DNA of 34,111 nt from Desulfohalobiaceae bacterium (GTDB lineage: Bacteria > Desulfobacterota > Desulfovibrionia > Desulfovibrionales > Desulfothermaceae): the NCBI GenBank assembly GCA_021737085.1, contig JAIPEP010000011.1:1-34111 (forward strand). Direction: 5' to 3'. Under the pieces are notes generated by a model, which did not search any database, was not told the origin of the DNA, and was given only the letters and a program-made list of their open reading frames with translations. Of this stretch, positions 14,292-28,534 are shown piece by piece. Position 1 is the stretch's first letter. Each line of letters starts with the position of its first letter. The position numbers and the translations under genes are program-made.

Positions 14292-16247
14292 TCAGGTTCC
14301 GGAAAGGATTTTTTTCCGCTCGTTCAGCCGGGACTGGACCCTGGGGAACTTGTCCAGATCGGTGTGGGGCAAAAAGAGCGAGGCCATGTATTTGTCCATA
14401 TAGGAAGTGGTCTCGGAGAGCTCGAAATTGGTCATCTTCTTGGTCACTTCCACCACGTTTTGCCGGATGTGGTTGTTCAGCGAGCTCATCTTGGCCCCCA
14501 TGAGGGATCCATTGCCCACGAAGCTAATCCGCTCCGGGTCCATCTCCGGCAGCAGACCGATGGTCAGGGCCTTCTCCAGATCTATGTAACTGCCGAATCC
14601 ACCCGCGAGCAGGACGCGGTCCAATTCGGACAAGGTAAGCCCGATCTCGTCCAAAAGAGTCATGCACCCGCTATAGATAGCCCCCTTGGCCCGGATGAGG
14701 TTGTCGATATCCGGTTCCTGGAGCACAATATCCCTGTCCACGCCCGACTCTTCCGCCCAGACCAGAACGTACTCCCAGATGCCCTCCTCAGCCTCTCTGA
14801 TCCGCGGAGTGTCCAGCTCCCGGTTGAACTTGCCCTGATTGTCGAGCACACCTGTTTCGAAAAGGCTGGCCACCATGGTGATCAGGCCGGATCCGCAGAT
14901 GCCCACCGGCTTCGCCTCGCCGATGGTCAGGACCATGGGTTCAAAGGTGAAGGGATCGATGGAAAAGTCCTCGATCGCTCCCTTCTTGGCACGCATGCCC
15001 AGCTTCATGCCCCCGCCCTCGAAGGCGGGGCCCGCGGAGCAGGCGGCGCAAACCATCCAGTCCTTGTTCCCGATAACCACCTCTGCGTTGGTCCCGATAT
15101 CCACATACAGGGTCACCTCCTCGCTCTGATACATGAGCGAGCCCATGATGCCGGCGACGATATCACCGCCCACATAGCTGGAGATGGAGGGAAAGACCAG
15201 GGCCAGGGCGTGCTCCTCGAGATCGATACCGATATTCCGCGCTTTAATCGGGGGAAAAAGGGTGCAGGTCGGCACATAAGGAGAGCGGCGGATGTAGCGC
15301 GGATTGAGCTTGAGAAGGAGCTGGGTCATTGTAGTGTTGCCGGCTATAGTGATGGTGGAGACCTCGTCCTTGTCCACACCGGCTTCGTTGAGGATCTTCG
15401 CCAGAATCCGGTTTATTGTCTCCAGCACGGCCTGACACAGCTCCTGCAGGCCGTCGCCCTTCTCCGCATACACGATGCGATTGATGATGTCCTCCCCATA
15501 GGTCATCTGCTGATTGAAGTCCCCGTATTCGGCAAGTACCTCCCCGCTGTTAAGGTCCAGCACCTGCCCGAAGACAGTGGTGGTTCCCACGTCCAGGGCC
15601 AGGGCGAAGTTGCGGTCGGTTGTGTCCCCGGGTTGGACGTTGAGAATAGTGTTCTTGCCGCTCTCTTCATGCACCGGCCGGCCCAGGGTGGCAGTAGTCT
15701 GGAAATCCTGCTCCCGGATAACGTCGGTTATCTTGCGGATAACGCTGAAATCCACTTCCAGATTGTGCTCCTCGTGATGAAATTTCAGATTGTCCACCAC
15801 CCGGGTCACGTCGGAGCAGTTGTCCTGGCTGCTGGGAGGGGGAAGCTGAAGGTTCTTCTTCTCGATGGGGGGCAGGAAAAAGCCATGAACCTTGAAGTCC
15901 TCCAGAGAGACCTGCCTGATCGCCGCAGTCTTGCGCGGAGTGGCCTGGAGATTGAGCACGCTGGGATCCAGCTCGGACTCCACAGGGACCTGAACACTGA
16001 GATCCTGGGTTACCCGGGAGAGGCAGGCCAGGCGGTATCCCGCCTCCCTGTCCTGCTGGGACAGCTTCTCGCTGACCCCGTTCTCCACCTCCCCCTCCTG
16101 GAGCAGGACCCGGCACTTGCCGCAGACCCCGTTGCCTCCGCAGGAGGCGTTGATATGCACGCCGGCATCCAGTGCAGCCCGTAGCAACAGGGTGCCCTCT
16201 GGAACCTCCGCCTCACGCCCGTGCGGATAAAATTTGACCCGGGGCAT
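14292..16247 (-). CDS. acsV: Reductive activator of the corrinoid iron-sulfur protein (RACo), AcsV type
   Basis: This encodes 651 residues from ATG 16247; an ATG two codons earlier lies too close to the AAGGAG ribosome site. RACo uses ATP to drive reduction of inactive Co(II) corrinoid back to Co(I). Residues 1-95 form a plant-type [2Fe-2S] domain with C36, C42, C45 and C75 (ASCGGNGVCGKC, LACLSR). A linker/middle domain follows (about 95-210). The C-terminal DUF4445 ASKHA ATPase domain starts with ALDVGTTT and includes TIAGNTTMTQLLL, FPSISSYVGGDIVAGIM, LYVDIGTNAEVVIG, CSAGPAFEGGGM, GICGSGLI and LLAGGFGSYIDLEKALTIGLLP. Length matches characterised RACo proteins (about 630-650). It is followed downstream by the acsD leader and preceded by a truncated paralogue. 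Confidence 0.93.
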   Translation of the reverse strand: MPRVKFYPHGREAEVPEGTLLLRAALDAGVHINASCGGNGVCGKCRVLLQEGEVENGVSEKLSQQDREAGYRLACLSRVTQDLSVQVPVESELDPSVLNLQATPRKTAAIRQVSLEDFKVHGFFLPPIEKKNLQLPPPSSQDNCSDVTRVVDNLKFHHEEHNLEVDFSVIRKITDVIREQDFQTTATLGRPVHEESGKNTILNVQPGDTTDRNFALALDVGTTTVFGQVLDLNSGEVLAEYGDFNQQMTYGEDIINRIVYAEKGDGLQELCQAVLETINRILAKILNEAGVDKDEVSTITIAGNTTMTQLLLKLNPRYIRRSPYVPTCTLFPPIKARNIGIDLEEHALALVFPSISSYVGGDIVAGIMGSLMYQSEEVTLYVDIGTNAEVVIGNKDWMVCAACSAGPAFEGGGMKLGMRAKKGAIEDFSIDPFTFEPMVLTIGEAKPVGICGSGLITMVASLFETGVLDNQGKFNRELDTPRIREAEEGIWEYVLVWAEESGVDRDIVLQEPDIDNLIRAKGAIYSGCMTLLDEIGLTLSELDRVLLAGGFGSYIDLEKALTIGLLPEMDPERISFVGNGSLMGAKMSSLNNHIRQNVVEVTKKMTNFELSETTSYMDKYMASLFLPHTDLDKFPRVQSRLNERKKILSGT

Positions 16248-16299
16248 AAGCATCTCTCCTTTTTGTCTGTTCCCACCGCTAACCGGATCGGGACTTTAT

Positions 16300-17841
16300 T
16301 CAGTTGGTCTGGGAGGGAAACCTGGACCGATCCGTATGGGGCAGGAACTTGGCCGCGCTGAATCGGTTCATGAACTCCTGGTTCACGTTGAGCTCCAGAT
16401 AGGTCACTTTCCGGGTGACCGCGTATACTTCCTGGAGTGCCTCAGGGCTTTGCAGGACCCGGACAGACCCGGCAAGCGAGCTGTTGCCCAGGGGAATATA
16501 GCGCTCCAGGGGCAGATCTGGAAGCATCCCTATAGCTATGGCGGACTCCGGGTCGATGTAGCTCCCGAAGGTACCAGCCACGTAGAAACGGGATATATCT
16601 TCCATATTCAGGCCCACGCTGCTGGTGATAGTCTCCAGTATAGTGAACATGGCCGCCTTGGAGCGAATAAGGCTGTCGATCTCGGGTTGGCCCAGGAGAA
16701 GATCCTCTCCGGTGGCGGAGTCTCTGCCGGAGACCAGGACGAAATGGACAATCCCGTCGATTGTCTTGAACCTCTCCGGCATCACCTCCGGGTCGAATTT
16801 GCCGCGGAAATCCAGCAGTCCGTTGCGGAACAGCTGCGCCGCCAAATCGATGACCCCGGAGCCGCAGATCCCTGCTGGCGGGCCATCGTCTATGGTTCCC
16901 ACCCGGAAATCCCTCGCCTCTTCATCGAACCGGACCCTGTCAATAATTCCGGGACCGGCCTGCCTGCCTATGTCGCTCATACCCTCTTCCAGGGCCGGTC
17001 CCGCGGCTCCGGCGCAGGCGATGAGCCAGTCCCGGCACCCCAGGACCACCTCCGCATTGGTGCCCACATCAACCAGGATGGAGATCTCCTCGCTTTCGTT
17101 CATTCCGCTGGAGATGATTCCCGCCAGGACATCGCCTCCGAAATAGCTCCCCACACCTGGAAAGCACATCACCCTGGCCTGGGGGGCAAAATCGAGCCCC
17201 AGCTCGGTAGCGGAGACCAGATCCGGGAAGTTCAGGGCGGGGATATAGGGCTCCCGTATAATCCACTTGGGAGGAAGGCCCAGGAAAAAATGGGTCATGG
17301 CCGTATTCCCGGAGAGGGCCACATTCGCGATGCGCTCCGGCCGCTCCCCGGCCTCGCGACAGAGCTCTCCGCTCGCTTCCCGCAAATCCTCCAGCACGAG
17401 CCTTTGTATGGTGCGCAAGCGCTCTCGGCTGTCGCCCACATAGTGGATCCGGCTCAGTATGTCCGTCCCCAGCTCCACTTGGGGGTTGTCCCGGGAAAGC
17501 CTGGCCAGCTCGCGGCCACTCTCCAGATGGATAAGGGCGAGCACATATCTCGTGGTCCCCAGATCCACGGCCAGGCCCAGCCAGCCGCCTTCCTCCTCCA
17601 GGCCCTTCACCCCAGTCACCACCTGGACCTGTCTGTCCCGGAAAAGGCAGCAGCTCGCGCCATAGCCGGATTTGCGGAAGAGATCCGGAAGGCGACGGAT
17701 CAAGTCCAGGTCCAGAAGGAGGGGCGGGCCCTCGCCCCATGGGGCAAGGGCCCGCCGCAGCCGGTCCGCATCAGCGGTATTGTCCCCAAAGGAGGGCTCC
17801 GCCATCTCCACGCTGTGCACCCAGTTGCCCTGCTCCTGCAT
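16300..17841 (-). CDS. RACo-like ASKHA ATPase lacking the [2Fe-2S] domain
   Basis: This encodes 513 residues from ATG 17841 (start not certain; several in-frame GTG/ATG codons follow). It is a paralogue of the downstream AcsV protein over the C-terminal ATPase domain: AVDLGTTRYVLALIHL (about 91-106), ALSGNTAMTHFFLGL, FPGVGSYFGGDVLAGII, ILVDVGTNAEVVLG, GAAGPALEEGM, GICGSGVIDLA, YVAGTFGSYIDPESAIAIGMLP and GNSSLAGSVRVL. The N-terminal 90 residues have no Cys-x5-Cys-x2-Cys ferredoxin motif. It may work as a partner or regulator of RACo, or as a second activator that takes electrons from another protein; neither is shown. Its start is 40 bp after the stop of the prmA-like gene and 46 bp separate it from acsV. 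Confidence 0.88.
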   Translation of the reverse strand: MQEQGNWVHSVEMAEPSFGDNTADADRLRRALAPWGEGPPLLLDLDLIRRLPDLFRKSGYGASCCLFRDRQVQVVTGVKGLEEEGGWLGLAVDLGTTRYVLALIHLESGRELARLSRDNPQVELGTDILSRIHYVGDSRERLRTIQRLVLEDLREASGELCREAGERPERIANVALSGNTAMTHFFLGLPPKWIIREPYIPALNFPDLVSATELGLDFAPQARVMCFPGVGSYFGGDVLAGIISSGMNESEEISILVDVGTNAEVVLGCRDWLIACAGAAGPALEEGMSDIGRQAGPGIIDRVRFDEEARDFRVGTIDDGPPAGICGSGVIDLAAQLFRNGLLDFRGKFDPEVMPERFKTIDGIVHFVLVSGRDSATGEDLLLGQPEIDSLIRSKAAMFTILETITSSVGLNMEDISRFYVAGTFGSYIDPESAIAIGMLPDLPLERYIPLGNSSLAGSVRVLQSPEALQEVYAVTRKVTYLELNVNQEFMNRFSAAKFLPHTDRSRFPSQTN

Positions 17842-20623: not shown

Positions 20624-20717
20624 CCTTTTGCCATATCTCGCAAAGCATTGTGGTAGTATATCCCAGCCTTCCCTAGGGGAAGCGAGTCCCCAAAAAGGTC
20701 CCCAAAAGGAGGATGCC

Positions 20718-21587
20718 GTGCTCCAAAACAAGATCGCAAGCGGAGAATTCGCCTTGTTGGCCGAATTCGACCCCCCCAAGGGCATCGACACCAGCTCCAT
20801 GCTGCACTCCGCCTCCCGGATCAAGGGGCAAGTGGACGCCATCGTAGTGAGCGAGATGAACAACTCGGTCATGCGGCTCAGCTCGCTGGGCGGATCCCTC
20901 CTGCTCCAACAGAAGGGATTCGAGGTGGTCATGCAGGTCTGCTGCCGAGATCGCAATCGGCTGGCTTTGCAGGGTGACCTTTTGGCCGCTGGCTCCCTGG
21001 GGATAACCAACCTGATGCTGGTGCAGGGGGACCCCCCAGACTACGGGGACCATCCGGAGACCCGGGCGGTGGACGACCTGGACCTAGCCGGGCTGCAGGA
21101 CGTGGTGGTCAAGATGCGCAACGGAAGGGATCTTGCCGGTGCCGAGCTCCTCGGTTCCCCTTCTTTTTTTGTGGGACAGCCCCTGGACATCGGAACCGAC
21201 CCGCATAATATGGACTGGATCAAACAGGATATGGAGAAACGGCTCAACCAGGGGGCGCAATATTTCGTGACCCGACCCGTATTCGACCCTGCCCTGCTGG
21301 ACGCCCTGCAGGAAGCAATCGGCCCCTTGACCCCCTATGTCGTGCCTTCTGTCCTGTTACTCAAATCGCTGGGCATGGCCCGGTACATAGATATGAACAT
21401 CGACAGCCTCTTTATGCCTCCCGATCTGATCACCCGGATCAAGAAGTCCCCGGATAAGGCAAATGAAGGCATAAAAATCGCCGCAGAAACGGTTCACGCA
21501 ATCAGGGAAAGGGGTTTCGGAGGGGCCATGCTCTCCACCATGGGCTGGGAGCGCCGTTTACCGGAAATCGTCAACCGCATCAAATAA
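20718..21587 (+). CDS. Methylene-tetrahydrofolate reductase family protein (first MetF-like)
   Basis: This encodes 289 residues from GTG 20718, chosen because AAGGAGG at 20706-20712 lies five bases upstream. It is a MetF-type TIM barrel: the N-terminus LLAEFDPPKG holds the position of the catalytic Glu, followed by QVCCRDRNRLALQGDLLAAGSLGI (the CRDRNR signature), LMLVQGDPPDYGDHP (flavin/folate loop), and QYFVTRPVFDP (matching the family's FFxTQP region). It should bind FAD and reduce or oxidise methylene-THF/methyl-THF, or a related C1 pterin. It is one of two MetF homologues in this cluster; unlike the second, it is not next to metV. It is separated by 103 bp from the HdrA-fusion gene. Confidence 0.88.
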   Translation: MLQNKIASGEFALLAEFDPPKGIDTSSMLHSASRIKGQVDAIVVSEMNNSVMRLSSLGGSLLLQQKGFEVVMQVCCRDRNRLALQGDLLAAGSLGITNLMLVQGDPPDYGDHPETRAVDDLDLAGLQDVVVKMRNGRDLAGAELLGSPSFFVGQPLDIGTDPHNMDWIKQDMEKRLNQGAQYFVTRPVFDPALLDALQEAIGPLTPYVVPSVLLLKSLGMARYIDMNIDSLFMPPDLITRIKKSPDKANEGIKIAAETVHAIRERGFGGAMLSTMGWERRLPEIVNRIK

Positions 21588-21690: not shown

Positions 21691-24600
21691 ATGCCCGATC
21701 AGGACAGGAAGGGACCCGTCGGAGCAGTCATGATCGTCGGTGGCGGGGTGACCGGAATGCAGGCCGCGCTGGATCTGGCCAATTCCGGAAACTACGTGTA
21801 TCTGGTAGAGTCATCTCCTGCCATCGGGGGAATCATGTCCCAACTGGACAAGACATTCCCCACAAACGACTGCTCCCTGTGCATTATTTCCCCCAAGCTG
21901 GTGGAAGTGGGCAGACATCTAAACATTGAGCTCCTGCCCACGAGCGAGATCCGGGACCTCCGGGGAGAGCCGGGGAACTTCACCGCAAAGGTGCTGCAGC
22001 GTCCCCGCTACGTGGACCTGGACAACTGCACCAGCTGCGGGGACTGCGCCGGGGCCTGCCCCGTGGAGCTGCCCAACGAGTACAACGAAGGCCTGTCCCA
22101 GAACAAGGCGGTGTACAAAAAATACGATCAAGCCATTCCTGCGGCCTACGCCATCCGCAAGGGCGATCCCGCCCCCTGTCGCATGACCTGCCCCGCCGGG
22201 CTCAATGTCCAGGGGTATGTGCAGATGGTCAGGCAGGGTAATTATGAGCGGGCCTTGGAGATCATCATGGAGGATCTGCCCCTGCCCGGTGTGCTGGGCC
22301 GCATCTGCCCCCGCGGATGCGAGGACGCCTGCCGCCGCTGCGAGGTGGACGAGCCCGTTTCCATCCGCAATCTGAAGCGCCTTGCCGCGGACCAGTTCGA
22401 CGCGCGGCAGGTTCAGATTCCTTGCGCCCCGGAGAGACCGGAGAAAGTGGCTATCATCGGCTCCGGTCCCGCGGGTTTATCTGCTGCCTACCATCTGGGT
22501 CGCTCCGGGATCCGCTCCACCATATTCGAGGCCCTGCCCCAGCCTGGAGGCATGCTCCGCGCGGGCATCCCCGCCCACCGGCTGCCCCGCGAGGTGTTGG
22601 ACCAGGAGATCGAGGTGGTGACCAACCTGGGCGCGGAGATCCGGACGGGCACCGCCCTGGGCCGAGACGTGAGCCTCGACGGCCTCTTCCAGGAGGGCTA
22701 CAGCGCGGTCTATCTGGCCCTGGGCGCCCACAAGGGCATGGAGCTGGGCGTTCCCGGAGAGAAGTCCAATGGCGTGCGGCAGGGAGTGGATTTCCTGCGC
22801 GAGGTGAATCTTTCCGGCACCGCCCAGGTGGGCCGCAAGGTGGCCATTATCGGCGGCGGGAACGTAGCCGTGGACGTGGCCCGAAGCGCCCTGCGCATGG
22901 GGGCGGAGGAGGTGACCATCGCCTATCGCCGCACCCGGAAGGAGATGCCCGCCCTGCGGGAGGAGATAGAGGCCGCGGAATGCGAGGGCATCCGCATCGC
23001 CTACCTCTGCGCCCCGCAGCAGATCCTGGACCGTGACGGAGCGGTCTCCGGGATCCGTCTCATCGAGATGGAGCTGGGCGAGCCGGATTCTTCCGGCCGG
23101 AGGCGTCCGGTTCCGGTTCCGGGAAGCGAATTCGACCTGGAGGTGGACCAGGTATTTCCCGCCATAGGTCAGCGCCCGGACATCGGGCCCATCGAGGAGG
23201 AAGAGGGCCTGGAGTTCACCCGCTGGGCCACCACGGAGGTGGATTCCGTCACCTACGAGACAGGCCGTCCCGGTGTCTTTGCCGGGGGCGACCTGCAGAC
23301 CGGTCCCTGGGTGGCCATCGGCGCGGTAGCCGCGGGCCGCGAGGCAGCGGAGTCCATGGTGCGCTATCTGGACGGCCGCGATCTGAGCGCGGGCCGCGAG
23401 CCCCTGGAGCAGCCCTCGGAGCCGGACTACCGGCCCATTCCGGAGAAGGAGCCGGTACGCAAGCGCGTGGACATGCCCGAGCTCGATCTGGAAGAAAGGA
23501 CCTGCACCTTCCAGGAAGTGGAGCTGGGCCTGGAGGACCAGTCCGGCCGCAACGAGGCGGACCGCTGTCTCAACTGCGGCTACTGCTGCGAGTGCTATCA
23601 GTGCGTGAACGCCTGTCTGGCCCAGGCCATTGACCACAGCCAACGCCCCGAAACCAAGGAGCTCCAGGTAGGCTCGGTCATCCTCTGCCCCGGAGCAAAG
23701 GCCTTCGATCCAGCCCGGCTGGATCAGTTCTACAATTATTCCAGCCACCCCAATGTGGTAACCAGTTTGGAATTCGAGCGCATCCTCTCCGCCACCGGGC
23801 CTAGCGCCGGTCACCTGCAAAGACGCTCCGACGGGAGGGAGCCCTCCAAGATCGCCTGGCTGCAGTGCGTGGGCTCGCGGGACCAGAACCAGTGCGGCAA
23901 CAGTTACTGTTCCGCGGTGTGCTGCATGTACGCCATAAAAGAGGCAATCGTGGCCAAGGAACATGCGGAGCACGAGCTGGACTGCGCCGTGTTCAACATG
24001 GATATCCGGAGCTTCGGCAAGGACTACGAAAATTACTATCAGCGGGCCGCGGACACTTTTGGAGTGCGCTTCATCAAGAGCCGGATCCATACCGTGCTTC
24101 CCCGCCCGGACAGCGACGACCTCTTGCTTGGCTACGTGGACGAGTCGGGAGTCAAGCAAGAAGAGGCCTTTGATATGGTGGTCCTCTCCGTAGGCCTGGA
24201 AACATCTTCCGGTGTGATAGAGACCGCACGGGGCCTGGGCATAGAGCTGGACAAACACAACTTTGTGGACAGCCCTGTCTTCGAGCCGGGCCGGACCTCC
24301 AGACCCGGGGTCTACGTCAGCGGGACTTTTCGGGGCCCCAAGGACATACCCGCCTCTGTAAGCGAGGGAAGCGCAGCAGCCAGCGAGGCGTCCCGCGAGC
24401 TAGCCAAGGCCCGGCACAGTCTGACCCGGTCCCCGGAGTATCCCCCGCAAAAGGATGTGTCCGGCCAGGAGCCGCGTATCGGGGTTTTCGTCTGCAACTG
24501 CGGCATCAACATCGGCGGAGTGGTGGATGTGAACGAGGTTACCCAGTACTCAGCCGGGCTGGACAACGTGGTTTTCGCGGACTCCAACCTGTTCACCTGC

Positions 24601-26139
24601 TCCGACGACGCCCAGTCCGGCATCAAGCAGGCCATCCAGGAGCAGGATCTAAACCGCGTGGTGGTGGCCTCCTGCTCGCCCCAGACCCACGAGCCCATCT
24701 TCATGGACACCCTGGAGAGCTGCGGCCTGAACAAATACCTTTTTGAGATGGCCAACATCCGCAACCACGACTCCTGGGTGCACGGTAACGCACCCAGGGA
24801 GGCCACGGACAAGGCCAAGGATCTGGTCCGCATGGCTGTGGCCAGGGCCAGGCGTCTGGCCCCCCTGCAGGAAAAGAGCATCCCTGTGGTTTCCAAGGCC
24901 CTGGTCATCGGTGGTGGCGTGGCCGGAATGAACGCGGCCCTCTCCCTGGCGGATCAGGGATTCGAGACTACCCTGGTGGAAAAGGAGACGGAGCTGGGCG
25001 GTCTGGCCAATCAGCTGACCCGGACCATCGAGGGCGAGGATATCCCTGCCTACGTGCGGGAGCTGGCACAACGCACTGCTGACCATCCCAACCTTACCGT
25101 CTACACCCGTTCCGTGGTGGTAAACTTCTCCGGCTTCAAAGGCAACTTCCAGACAGAGCTGATAGTGGGACCCGGCATGTACGAGCGCACCATCGAGCAC
25201 GGGGTCACCATCCTGGCCACTGGGGCCACGGAATATCAGCCAGGTGAATACCTCTACGGACAAAACGAGCGGGTCCTGACCCAGTTGGAGCTGGGGCAGC
25301 GCCTGGAGAGCGGGAATTTATCCCCAACGGACCAAGTGGCAATGATTCAGTGCGTGGGCTCGCGCAACGAGGAACACCCCAACTGCTCCCGTATCTGCTG
25401 TCAGTCCGCTATCAAGAACGCCATCCACATCAAGGAACAAAGCCCGGAAACACAAGTACATATCCTCTATCGGGACATCAGGACCTACGGCGCGCTGGAG
25501 GACTATTACACCAGGGCCCGGGAACTCGGGGTTATGTTCCACCATTTTCAACCGGAGGATCCTCCCCGCGTAGAAACCACGGATGATGACGGGCTAAGCC
25601 TCACTTTCCGGGATCGAATTCTGGGGCAGGACATTGAGCTTCGGCCCGGCCTTCTGGCACTGAGCGCCGGAATGCGGGCCGCGGACACCGAGGAATTGGC
25701 CTCTGTGCTCAAGCAACCCAGGAACGAGGAGGGCCACTTCCTCGAGGCGCACGTGAAGCTGCGGCCAGTGGACATGCCCACGGAGGGAGTCTTTGTCTGC
25801 GGCACCGCCCACAGCCCGCAACTGGTCTCCGAGTCCATATCCCAGGCTAGAGCGGCGGCTTCGCGGGCCGCGACGATCCTGTCCCAGGAGAGCCTTACCC
25901 TCTCCGCGGTGACAGCCCGGGTCAACCAGGATCTTTGCGCCGCCTGCCTGGTCTGTGTCCGCAACTGCCCCTACGGGGTTCCCCGGATCAACGAGGAAGG
26001 TGTTAGCGAGATCGATCCGGCCCAATGCCAGGGCTGCGGGATATGCGCAGCAGAATGTCCGGCCAAGGCTATCGAGCTCAACTGGTTCGAGGACAATCAG
26101 ATCCTGGCAGAGATCGACGCCTTGCTAGAGGAGGCATGA
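21691..26139 (+). CDS. Giant HdrA/GltD-like/HdrA fusion flavoprotein (HdrL-like)
   Basis: This encodes 1482 residues from ATG 21691 (GGGGAGAG upstream). Three FAD/NAD(P)-binding modules are visible. First HdrA: GGGVTGMQAALDLA (17-30), LDKTFPTNDC (52-61), four-Cys cluster C113/C116/C119/C123. Then a glutamate-synthase-beta-like (GltD) insert with cysteines C163, C167, C206, C210, C214, C217, the FAD motif IIGSGPAGLSAAYHLG (255-270), the NAD(P) motif IIGGGNVAVDVARSA (386-400) and AGGDLQTG (531-538). The first HdrA then resumes with a cysteine-rich stretch (626-642) and WLQCVGSRDQN (723-733). Second HdrA: CNC (935-937), GGGVAGMNAALSLA (1074-1087), CVGSRNEEHPNC (1221-1232), and two C-terminal ferredoxin clusters (C1416-C1426, C1446-C1456). 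It is probably a cytoplasmic electron-bifurcating or NAD(P)H-linked hub; no HdrB or HdrC is adjacent. Confidence 0.93.
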   Translation: MPDQDRKGPVGAVMIVGGGVTGMQAALDLANSGNYVYLVESSPAIGGIMSQLDKTFPTNDCSLCIISPKLVEVGRHLNIELLPTSEIRDLRGEPGNFTAKVLQRPRYVDLDNCTSCGDCAGACPVELPNEYNEGLSQNKAVYKKYDQAIPAAYAIRKGDPAPCRMTCPAGLNVQGYVQMVRQGNYERALEIIMEDLPLPGVLGRICPRGCEDACRRCEVDEPVSIRNLKRLAADQFDARQVQIPCAPERPEKVAIIGSGPAGLSAAYHLGRSGIRSTIFEALPQPGGMLRAGIPAHRLPREVLDQEIEVVTNLGAEIRTGTALGRDVSLDGLFQEGYSAVYLALGAHKGMELGVPGEKSNGVRQGVDFLREVNLSGTAQVGRKVAIIGGGNVAVDVARSALRMGAEEVTIAYRRTRKEMPALREEIEAAECEGIRIAYLCAPQQILDRDGAVSGIRLIEMELGEPDSSGRRRPVPVPGSEFDLEVDQVFPAIGQRPDIGPIEEEEGLEFTRWATTEVDSVTYETGRPGVFAGGDLQTGPWVAIGAVAAGREAAESMVRYLDGRDLSAGREPLEQPSEPDYRPIPEKEPVRKRVDMPELDLEERTCTFQEVELGLEDQSGRNEADRCLNCGYCCECYQCVNACLAQAIDHSQRPETKELQVGSVILCPGAKAFDPARLDQFYNYSSHPNVVTSLEFERILSATGPSAGHLQRRSDGREPSKIAWLQCVGSRDQNQCGNSYCSAVCCMYAIKEAIVAKEHAEHELDCAVFNMDIRSFGKDYENYYQRAADTFGVRFIKSRIHTVLPRPDSDDLLLGYVDESGVKQEEAFDMVVLSVGLETSSGVIETARGLGIELDKHNFVDSPVFEPGRTSRPGVYVSGTFRGPKDIPASVSEGSAAASEASRELAKARHSLTRSPEYPPQKDVSGQEPRIGVFVCNCGINIGGVVDVNEVTQYSAGLDNVVFADSNLFTCSDDAQSGIKQAIQEQDLNRVVVASCSPQTHEPIFMDTLESCGLNKYLFEMANIRNHDSWVHGNAPREATDKAKDLVRMAVARARRLAPLQEKSIPVVSKALVIGGGVAGMNAALSLADQGFETTLVEKETELGGLANQLTRTIEGEDIPAYVRELAQRTADHPNLTVYTRSVVVNFSGFKGNFQTELIVGPGMYERTIEHGVTILATGATEYQPGEYLYGQNERVLTQLELGQRLESGNLSPTDQVAMIQCVGSRNEEHPNCSRICCQSAIKNAIHIKEQSPETQVHILYRDIRTYGALEDYYTRARELGVMFHHFQPEDPPRVETTDDDGLSLTFRDRILGQDIELRPGLLALSAGMRAADTEELASVLKQPRNEEGHFLEAHVKLRPVDMPTEGVFVCGTAHSPQLVSESISQARAAASRAATILSQESLTLSAVTARVNQDLCAACLVCVRNCPYGVPRINEEGVSEIDPAQCQGCGICAAECPAKAIELNWFEDNQILAEIDALLEEA

Positions 26140-26235
26140 ACCCGTATAGCGGAAAGCGGGTAGGGGCTGCATGGTCCTATCCCGCGTCTTGAGGGACGAA
26201 GAGCTCATAGGAAACACTTGCTCAAACCACTAAAT

Positions 26236-26379
26236 AGTGCCTGACCGAAAACCGTGATTGGACGTAAACTAGCCCAGATACAAGGAGACGAAATTTTAAA
26301 ACCGCAGTGTATATTAATACATGAGGATTTCAAAATTTTGCAGCGACGAAGTAGGTGGGTGAGTTTTCGTCCAAGCACT
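26236..26379 (+). mobile_element. 144-bp palindromic MITE-like element, copy 3
   Basis: This copy lies between the HdrA-fusion gene and mvhD and is about 97-98 percent identical to copy 1 by eye. The 4-base AAAT occurs on both sides (26232-26235 and 26380-26383), consistent with a target-site duplication. The right end is 29 bases before the mvhD start codon, so it inserted directly into the leader region of that gene, and its hairpin could affect expression of mvhD-metV-metF. Confidence 0.85.
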
Positions 26380-26408
26380 AAATAGAGGTGCCAATCAGGG
26401 GGCTAATC

Positions 26409-26837
26409 ATGAATGAATTCCATCCCCGTATTATCGCCTTCTGCTGCAGCTATTGAGGCTATAGCGCAGCGGACCTGGCAGGTTCCATGCGGCTGGGGTA
26501 TTCCCCAGATATCAAGCTTATCCGGGTACCGTGCACGGGCAAGGTGGACCTGATCCACATCCTGCACGCCATGGAGAAAGGTGCGGACGGGGTCTATCTG
26601 GTGGGCTGCCTGGAGGGCGATTGCCATTTCCTTCACGGCAACCTCCGGGCTAAAAAAAGGGTGCAGAAGGCACAGGAGATTCTTAACAGCATTGGGCTGG
26701 AGGGAGAGCGGGTGCAGATGTACAATCTCTCCTCCGGAGAAGGGCCCAAGTTCGTGCAGTATGCCCGTGAAATGGAGGAAAGGATTCGGGAGCTCGGCCC
26801 CAATCCGATCAAAAAAGGGCTTTCCTCCGCGGCCTGA
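26409..26837 (+). CDS. mvhD: MvhD-type iron-sulfur protein with predicted selenocysteine (in-frame UGA)
   Basis: This encodes 142 residues if the TGA at 26454-26456 (codon 16) is read as selenocysteine. ATG 26409 has AGGGGG six bases upstream. The translation begins MNEFHPRIIAFCCSY-U-GYSAADLAG; MvhD proteins carry cysteine at the U position in the FCCNxC-type motif, so UGA replaces a conserved cysteine ligand. Downstream the family motifs continue in the same frame: RVPCTGKVD (39-47), GADGVYLVGCLEGDCHF (58-74), GN, KKRVQKAQEIL, and RVQMYNLSSGEGPKF. Remaining cysteines are C12, C13, C42, C67 and C72. MvhD binds a [2Fe-2S] cluster and passes electrons from hydrogenase or dehydrogenase to HdrA. 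Automatic annotation would start at ATG 26487 and lose the cysteine motif. Confidence 0.9.
26463..26494 (+). promoter_or_regulatory. SECIS-like hairpin after the mvhD UGA
   Basis: Starting seven bases after the UGA, AGC-GCA (26463-26468) pairs with TGC-G-GCT (26488-26494, one bulged G), and GGACC (26471-26475) pairs with GGTTCC (26481-26486, one bulged T). The 5-base apical loop is TGGCA, which contains GG at 26477-26478, about 21 bases after the UGA. Bacterial SECIS elements bound by SelB have a short upper stem, a bulged U and a GG-containing loop at about this distance, so the match is close. Confidence 0.75.
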
Positions 26838-26939
26838 GTTCTGGAGACAGGGCTGGCTTACCCGCATCCCGACTATGCCATAGTGGTCCCTATCTGTCCG
26901 GCTAGGTGGCCCAATGTTCTAACAAAGGGGGCTGTGAAT

Positions 26940-27608
26940 ATGATCGTCGCCGAACAAAAGCCCATCGAGGAAATCATCCAAGAAATCCAGGACGACCACA
27001 GCGTTCTTATCCTGGGCTGCAACGAATGCGTCACTGTCTGCGAGGCCGGAGGGAAAAAGGAGGTGGCGGTCCTGGCCTCCGCCCTGCGAATGCACTTCAT
27101 GCAACAGGGGGATCAGAAACAGATCGAGGAAAAGACCCTGGAGAGGCAGTGCGACTCGGAATACCTGGAAGAGCTGCGGGCTCAAGTGGACCGCTACGAT
27201 TCGGTGCTCTCCCTGGCCTGCGGAGCGGGAGTCCAGTTCACCGCGGAAAAGTACCCCTCTACTGCCATCTATCCCGGGGTCAACACCAAATTCATCGGAG
27301 TGACGGAAGAGCAGGGATACTGGACAGAGAGATGCCAGGCCTGCGGCCAATGCATTCTGGCCAAGACCGGAGGGATCTGTCCGGTTTCCCGCTGCGCCAA
27401 ACGCCTGCTGAACGGTCCCTGCGGAGGTTCTACCCAGGGAAAATGCGAAATAAATCCGGAGCTGGACTGCGCCTGGCAATTGATCATCGACAGGCTCAGT
27501 TCCCTGGACAAGCTGGACGACTATGAGGAGTTGGTCCCGATCAAGGACTGGTCCCCTGATCGGGCAGGGGGACCGCGAAAAGTAGTTAGGGAGGATGTTA
27601 CGTCATGA
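26940..27608 (+). CDS. metV: MetV, zinc/iron-sulfur partner of methylene-THF reductase
   Basis: This encodes 222 residues from ATG 26940, with AAAGGGGG upstream; the open frame extends earlier but that part lacks support. MetV forms the two-subunit methylene-tetrahydrofolate reductase of acetogens and related bacteria with MetF. The N-terminus has CNECVTVCEAGGKKEV with two cysteines per turn. The C-terminal part has the cysteine-rich motif CQACGQCILAKTGGICPVSRC followed by KRLLNGPCGGSTQGKCEI and CAW, expected to bind iron-sulfur or zinc. Its stop overlaps the metF start (ATGA at 27605-27608), so the two are translated in a coupled way. Confidence 0.92.
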   Translation: MIVAEQKPIEEIIQEIQDDHSVLILGCNECVTVCEAGGKKEVAVLASALRMHFMQQGDQKQIEEKTLERQCDSEYLEELRAQVDRYDSVLSLACGAGVQFTAEKYPSTAIYPGVNTKFIGVTEEQGYWTERCQACGQCILAKTGGICPVSRCAKRLLNGPCGGSTQGKCEINPELDCAWQLIIDRLSSLDKLDDYEELVPIKDWSPDRAGGPRKVVREDVTS

Positions 27609-28534
27609 GCGCTAATACGCCGAGCAGACTGGAAAAGGTTCTCGCCAACGGACACTTCGCCGTCACCACGGAGTGCGGTCCTCCTCGGGGAAGCGATCTC
27701 GGGGTGATCACCCAGAAAGCGGAATACGTGAAAAATCATGTGGACGCCATCAATGTAACGGACAACCAGACCTCGGTCACCCGGCTCTGCAGCCTCTCCT
27801 GCTGCATCCATCTCAAGCAGCTGGGTCTGGAGCCGATCCTGCAGATGGTAACCCGGGACCGCAACCGGATCGCCCTGCAAAGCGACATCCTGGGTGCCGC
27901 TGCCTTCGATATTCACAATATCCTCTGTCTTTCCGGAGATCACCAGAGCTTCGGAGACCATGCCCAAGGACAGAATGTGCACGATCTGGACTCTATGCAG
28001 CTTATCCAGACAGCGCGCCATATGCGCGACGAGGGCGCCTTTCTGGGCGGGGACGCCATACAGAGACCCCCGCAGATGTTTGTTGGAGCGGCAGCCAATC
28101 CCTTCGCCGATCCTTTCGAGATCCGTGTTCCCAGGCTGGCCAAGAAGGTCAAAGCAGGGGCCGAATTCATCCAGACCCAGTGCATCTACAACCTGGACAA
28201 GTTCGAAGAGTGGATGAAGGGCATCCGGGATCGTGGTCTGCACGAAGAGGTTGCTATCCTGGCCGGCCTTACACCCTTCAAATCCGCGGGCATGGCACGT
28301 TTTATGAAAAACAAGGTGCCGGGCATGGATGTTCCGGATCACGTGGTCAAGCGCATGGCGGATCAACCCAAGGAGAAGCAACCCGAGGAAGGGCTCAAGA
28401 TCTGCACCGAATCCATGCAGCGCCTAAAGGAAATCGAGGGTGTTAGCGGATTCCACATTATGGCCATCGAATGGGAGCAAAAGGTGCCGGAACTTGTCGA
28501 GGGAGCGGGCCTGCATCCCAGGCCTGAAATCTAG
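27605..28534 (+). CDS. metF: Methylene-tetrahydrofolate reductase MetF (second MetF)
   Basis: This encodes 309 residues; ATG 27605 overlaps the metV TGA. The MetF TIM barrel has VTTECGPPRG (19-28) with the catalytic Glu position, VDAINVTDNQTS, LQMVTRDRNRIALQSDILGAA, ILCLSGDH, FVGAAANPFADP and EFIQTQCIYNLD, ending in a GFHIMAIEWE-type strand. It reduces methylene-THF to methyl-THF, the substrate of AcsE, which is encoded across the divergent intergenic region. Partner MetV lies directly upstream; HdrA-fusion and Sec-MvhD are the likely electron suppliers. Length is typical. Confidence 0.94.
   Translation: MSANTPSRLEKVLANGHFAVTTECGPPRGSDLGVITQKAEYVKNHVDAINVTDNQTSVTRLCSLSCCIHLKQLGLEPILQMVTRDRNRIALQSDILGAAAFDIHNILCLSGDHQSFGDHAQGQNVHDLDSMQLIQTARHMRDEGAFLGGDAIQRPPQMFVGAAANPFADPFEIRVPRLAKKVKAGAEFIQTQCIYNLDKFEEWMKGIRDRGLHEEVAILAGLTPFKSAGMARFMKNKVPGMDVPDHVVKRMADQPKEKQPEEGLKICTESMQRLKEIEGVSGFHIMAIEWEQKVPELVEGAGLHPRPEI

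Follow-up and report, generated by a model that had tools for sequence, protein, structure and literature searches.

Selenocysteine (Sec) has been known in the FrhD/MvhD family since 2006, when Sec-containing members were reported from Syntrophobacter (eight copies), Syntrophus, Carboxydothermus, Moorella and others (PMC1794560). Sulfate reducers have since been added: Desulfobacterium autotrophicum HRM2 has Sec in mvhD1, 2, 3 and 5 (PMC2702500), and Desulfococcus multivorans encodes a Sec-containing MvhD/FrhD with a SECIS element (PMC5109826). A 2026 review gives CxxU as the motif of the family and describes multiple Sec residues in some archaeal members (PMC13188914). In the Hdr complexes of methanogens, the flavin of HdrA receives electrons from the [2Fe-2S] cluster of MvhD (PMC6019823, PMC12350162). 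The original prediction for the locus described here, a selenoprotein MvhD in a bacterial HdrA/MetVF cluster, referred to Sec-containing VhuD/MvhD subunits of methanogens; these are indeed known, but the trait is not restricted to methanogens, as the Deltaproteobacteria and the clostridia, including Moorella, show (PMC1794560, PMC2702500, PMC5109826).

The DNA analysed (the window, 34,111 nucleotides) is one entire contig of a Desulfohalobiaceae MAG that is 89% complete with 4.9% contamination. On its forward strand, positions 26409-26837 encode a 142-aa MvhD of the FlpD/MvhD/VhuD family, preceded by AGGGGG (26397-26402), the likely ribosome-binding site. With a single TGA at 26454-26456 read through, the frame translates as MNEFHPRIIAFCCSY-U-GYSAADLAG..., the codon itself standing in the string MNEFHPRIIAFCCSY-TGA-GYSAADLAGSMRLGYSPDIKLIRVPCTGK..., and terminates at another TGA (26835-26837). 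The first TGA is codon 16 and completes the CxxU motif (C13-S-Y-U16), and the family's other possible Sec position, residue 67, is a cysteine codon (TGC, 26607-26609). As predicted, the family sequence goes on unshifted behind the TGA: the read-through protein matches PF02662 with 166.6 bits (cut-off 22.3) over residues 8-130 and profile positions 1-123 of 123. Among solved structures, it comes closest to the MvhD/VhuD subunits of Hdr complexes from methanogens, with E-values as low as 1e-37. Against the VhuD equivalog NF045873 the protein scores 161.6 bits, below the curated cut-off of 215, and by its sequence it is a family relative of VhuD, not VhuD itself. A gap of 269 bases (26140-26408), which may hold a promoter or another element, separates mvhD from the hdrL gene upstream; several relatives have fewer than 30 bases there.

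Standard gene calls truncate mvhD at the TGA, and what they would list is a 116-aa ORF from the ATG at 26487, which lacks the N-terminal motif. If the TGA truly stopped translation, or were a sequencing error, the locus would be a pseudogene or would be translated from this restart. This reading is very remote, given that more than 40 independent genomes share the TGA at this codon, among them six of the same family. One of these six, a genus-mate MAG (L069), encodes an MvhD that is 85% identical, and the substitutions between the two genes fall at third codon positions in 8 of 13 cases before the TGA and in 47 of 68 after it. Such a mostly third-position pattern on both sides indicates that both halves are under protein-level selection, which a stop or an error does not explain; nor would either account for the synonymous freezing right past the TGA (below) or for a complete Sec machinery. 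On the frame alone, TGA could formally encode an amino acid other than Sec, through code reassignment or general readthrough. However, TGA serves as the stop codon in 11 of the 16 window genes checked, which excludes its reassignment to a sense codon. Further, the TGA aligns with Cys or Sec sites only, and a tRNA-Sec is present, so that we consider the probability of a non-Sec sense codon negligible.

The machinery for Sec insertion, whose presence the prediction had made a point to check, is encoded in full in the same genome. It comprises SelA (523 bits), SelB (387 bits) and SelD (329 bits), the last with an in-frame TGA of its own at the usual site, and a tRNA-Sec with the UCA anticodon scored 81.7 bits. 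The alternation of Cys and UGA that was expected among homologues was likewise found. In 46 comparison loci, fetched through metV and having a readable mvhD directly upstream of it, codon 16 is TGA in 40 and Cys in six; one of these Cys genes (L117) carries a TGA at residue 67. Of 297 genomes sampled from the phylum, 120 gave a strong MvhD match; among the matches listed, the TGA is present in every orthologue with 66% identity or more, and stop-less versions occur at 52-65% identity. One MAG, Desulfamplus nJC1bin9, holds both a Sec-type (L113) and a Cys-type (L120) MvhD-MetV locus, possibly a selenium-dependent and selenium-independent pair. The idea that Cys-type MvhD tracks the absence of SelB was rejected for want of a clean pattern: SelB is full in the genomes of L114, L115 and L120, in pieces in that of L116 and absent from that of L112.

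The strongest sign of a bacterial SECIS element comes from synonymous sites. Across 45 distinct Sec orthologues, 61 degenerate codons are conserved for their amino acid, and the five with the least synonymous variation are codons 5 to 9 past the UGA (15-29 nt), with entropies of 0 to 0.26 bits against a median of 1.50. In the window these are GCG GAC CTG GCA GGT (26469-26483), although in the same genes the five codons make up only 17%, 50%, 37%, 20% and 17%, respectively, of the usage for their own amino acids. The sequences share descent, and the freely varying neighbouring codons of the same genes provide the internal control. Sequences with Cys at residue 16 use other codons at the frozen positions. 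Freezing at the SECIS distance that is absent from Cys orthologues marks a bacterial SECIS element, whose apical stem-loop is predicted by both RNAalifold consensus and MFE at 26471-26485 (GGACCU-GGC-AGGUUC), with six base pairs and a 3-nt loop that begins with G and lies 20 nt past the UGA. The hairpin falls inside the published bSECIS limits (PMC13188914). It hardly varies across Sec orthologues, which leaves covariation without variation to score. The 44-nt stretch containing it folds at -16.8 kcal/mol, an ordinary value against shuffles (z -0.37), and a permissive bSECIS filter lets through 194 of 300 random synonymous recodings. Fold stability was therefore rejected as evidence for being non-discriminating, and the synonymous freezing is stronger evidence for the SECIS element than passing the filter. 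Scanned against Rfam, the whole window had no match, and the one match of a local scan, to a snoRNA, was dismissed as chance.

Collectively, the Sec machinery, the Cys/Sec alternation and the synonymous-site SECIS signature support the prediction that the MvhD of this Hdr/MetVF cluster is a selenoprotein. On these genomic grounds, mvhD very probably encodes a selenoprotein in which Sec is inserted at the UGA within an HdrL-MvhD-MetV-MetF system. The hairpin at 26471-26485 would direct SelB and the Sec-tRNA(UCA) to insert Sec16 at 26454-26456, and translation would then continue to the stop at 26835. For annotation, this gives a clean rule for a gene that would otherwise be cut short.

The same genome holds nine FlpD copies, which differ in where they carry the TGA: at residue 16 only in the window copy, at 67 in four, at both in one and at neither in three. 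The copy with both is a paralogous mvhD (L029, G000:C174:11579-11998), and a second mvhD on its contig has TGA only at residue 67. Another of the nine, a TGA-containing mvhD on C98 (L028, G000:C98:5218-5550), has its N-terminal part out of frame, through a frameshift or an assembly error. Over 89 aligned sequences, Cys13, Cys42 and Cys72 are invariant, residue 67 is Cys or Sec, and residue 16 is Sec in 48, Cys in 37, Ser in three and Asp in one. In the PDB, chain 9sfi_K of a solved VhuD shows modified residues (X) at exactly positions 16 and 67, and these are most likely Sec. All Sec16/Cys67 sequences form one group in the tree (support 91/83), nested in a wider clade with 9sfi (support 94/99), in agreement with the archaeal-deltaproteobacterial kinship proposed earlier (PMC1794560). 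Cys/Cys, Sec/Cys, Cys/Sec and Sec/Sec versions of the two sites thus exist, sometimes in one genome, and these four combinations within one family offer a natural series for studying the role of selenium near a [2Fe-2S] cluster.

Each [2Fe-2S] cluster needs four ligands, and MvhD has five conserved positions: 13, 16, 42, 67 and 72. In fused paralogues, position 16 is Ser or Asp and the other four are kept. The TGA had been placed at a cluster-binding cysteine, a claim of which one half stands: homologues do have Cys there, but cluster binding is unproven in view of the five positions for four ligands and of the Ser/Asp paralogues. From the alignment, residue 16 would be either a candidate cluster ligand or a neighbouring selenolate. 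The second case, in which MvhD is a selenoprotein and Sec16 is no Fe-S ligand but a free or partner-bonded selenolate that gates or protects electron transfer, is a serious possibility, if somewhat less probable than its opposite. It is favoured by the surplus of one conserved Cys/Sec position over the four ligands needed, and by the alignment, in which C13, C42 and C72 never vary in the 89 sequences and residue 16 becomes Ser or Asp in fused paralogues; those paralogues are divergent, however, and may hold a different cluster or none. The more specific proposal that the selenolate acts as a gating or redox-active residue, rather than as a simple ligand, in an HdrB-free HdrL-MvhD-MetVF complex is rather doubtful at present.

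The genes around mvhD place it in a putative methylene-THF reductase system, all on the forward strand. Upstream lies the gene for an HdrA/HdrL-type protein of 1482 aa (21691-26139) that joins HdrA modules to a GltD-like NAD(P)H/FAD module and is all-Cys, with no in-frame TGA. Downstream follow metV (DUF5981/MTHFR_C; 26940-27608) and metF (methylene-THF reductase; 27605-28534; PF02219, 121.8 bits), which overlap by four bases. For metV, the ATG at 26940 was chosen over a GTG at 26883, and its PF12225 score of 132 bits was obtained with the longer GTG-start ORF (26883-27608); the protein is 86% identical to MetV of L069. A second, divergent MTHFR-family protein (20628-21587; PF02219, 69.7 bits) is encoded upstream of hdrL, a position that it also occupies in many relatives. 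Culturable relatives with this operon include Desulfatibacillum alkenivorans (L082) and Desulfamplus magnetovallimortis (L084). Further upstream, on the opposite strand, is an AcsE-AcsC-AcsD-AcsV-CooC block. Two adjacent AcsV-like corrinoid-activation proteins (14292-16253 and 16300-17841) both score below the family cut-off, and the N-terminal ferredoxin part is missing from the second. An Hdr-type methylene-THF reductase is recognised by metV and metF beside mvhD and a large HdrA, all of which are found here, and by HdrB and HdrC in the cluster; a search of this contig for the HdrB-type CCG domain found none, and matches occur elsewhere in the genome.

It could be argued that the Sec-containing MvhD serves another Hdr complex, for instance a hydrogenase- or formate-linked one, and is a chance neighbour of metVF. 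Methanogen MvhD subunits are common to several complexes (PMC6019823), and Hdr/MvhD proteins of Sporomusa did not co-purify with MetVF, though in the same organism tagged MvhD pulled down HdrA, HdrB and MetF (PMC9430772). A chance neighbourhood is also at odds with the order (metF2)-hdrL-mvhD-metV-metF, which is kept across dozens of genomes (the loci having been fetched through metV) and in which metV and metF often overlap, and with the single tree group formed by the Sec16 clade. We therefore regard this explanation as improbable. In the favoured arrangement, HdrL, MvhD, MetV and MetF would form a methylene-THF reductase system, encoded in a Wood-Ljungdahl gene cluster, with MvhD as its [2Fe-2S] subunit. 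By inference from the Moorella, Sporomusa and methanogen complexes, MvhD most likely acts as an electron relay that links a partner to the flavin of the large HdrL and is coupled to MetVF. The GltD-like module of HdrL suggests NAD(P)H, and the role of MvhD as electron entry point would be carried over by analogy from the methanogen Hdr complexes. Selenium in position 16 would modulate the redox properties or reactivity of the MvhD centre. In sulfate reducers the pathway can run in either direction. For many sulfate-reducer relatives, the conserved locus suggests that an enzyme system in a central carbon pathway depends on selenium.

How, then, does the locus compare with the systems already described? 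Moorella offers a close match in gene order: its 2014 description, as cited in PMC6085437 and PMC9430772, has mvhD directly before metV-metF, as here, and in both organisms HdrA is very large, with 1487 aa in Moorella against 1482 aa in the window. Unlike the Moorella hexaheteromer, the window contig has no HdrB-type CCG domain and has a second MetF-like gene upstream instead, so that the complex may differ. Moorella also has a Sec-containing FrhD (PMC1794560); its MetVF-linked MvhD is YP_430050. The HdrL-MvhD pairs of Desulfobacterium autotrophicum HRM2 share the arrangement of a large Hdr/glutamate-synthase fusion followed by mvhD; there, HdrL1 and HdrL3 themselves carry Sec (PMC2702500), whereas the HdrL of the window does not. 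Among solved structures, the VhuD of PDB 9sfi and 9t1s (F420-non-reducing hydrogenase subunit delta) has a modified residue at the same position (X-GYGAADLAG), but it is by name a hydrogenase subunit and has two modified residues against one in the window MvhD; our literature search found no paper naming 9SFI or 9T1S. The same search, which had little reach into subscription journals, found no paper that singles out a MetVF-linked Sec-MvhD branch. With the Sec-containing FrhD/MvhD/VhuD proteins of the Deltaproteobacteria, clostridia and Methanococcales (PF02662; PMC1794560, PMC13188914), the window gene shares the family and the kind of Sec site; common to both are also the bacterial, in-gene type of SECIS element and a selenoprotein-rich anaerobe as host. 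It is set apart from them by a fixed place beside metVF, the Sec16/Cys67 combination and an almost invariant SECIS core, and the MetVF-linked clade is a well-marked and apparently undescribed branch of a selenoprotein family known since 2006.
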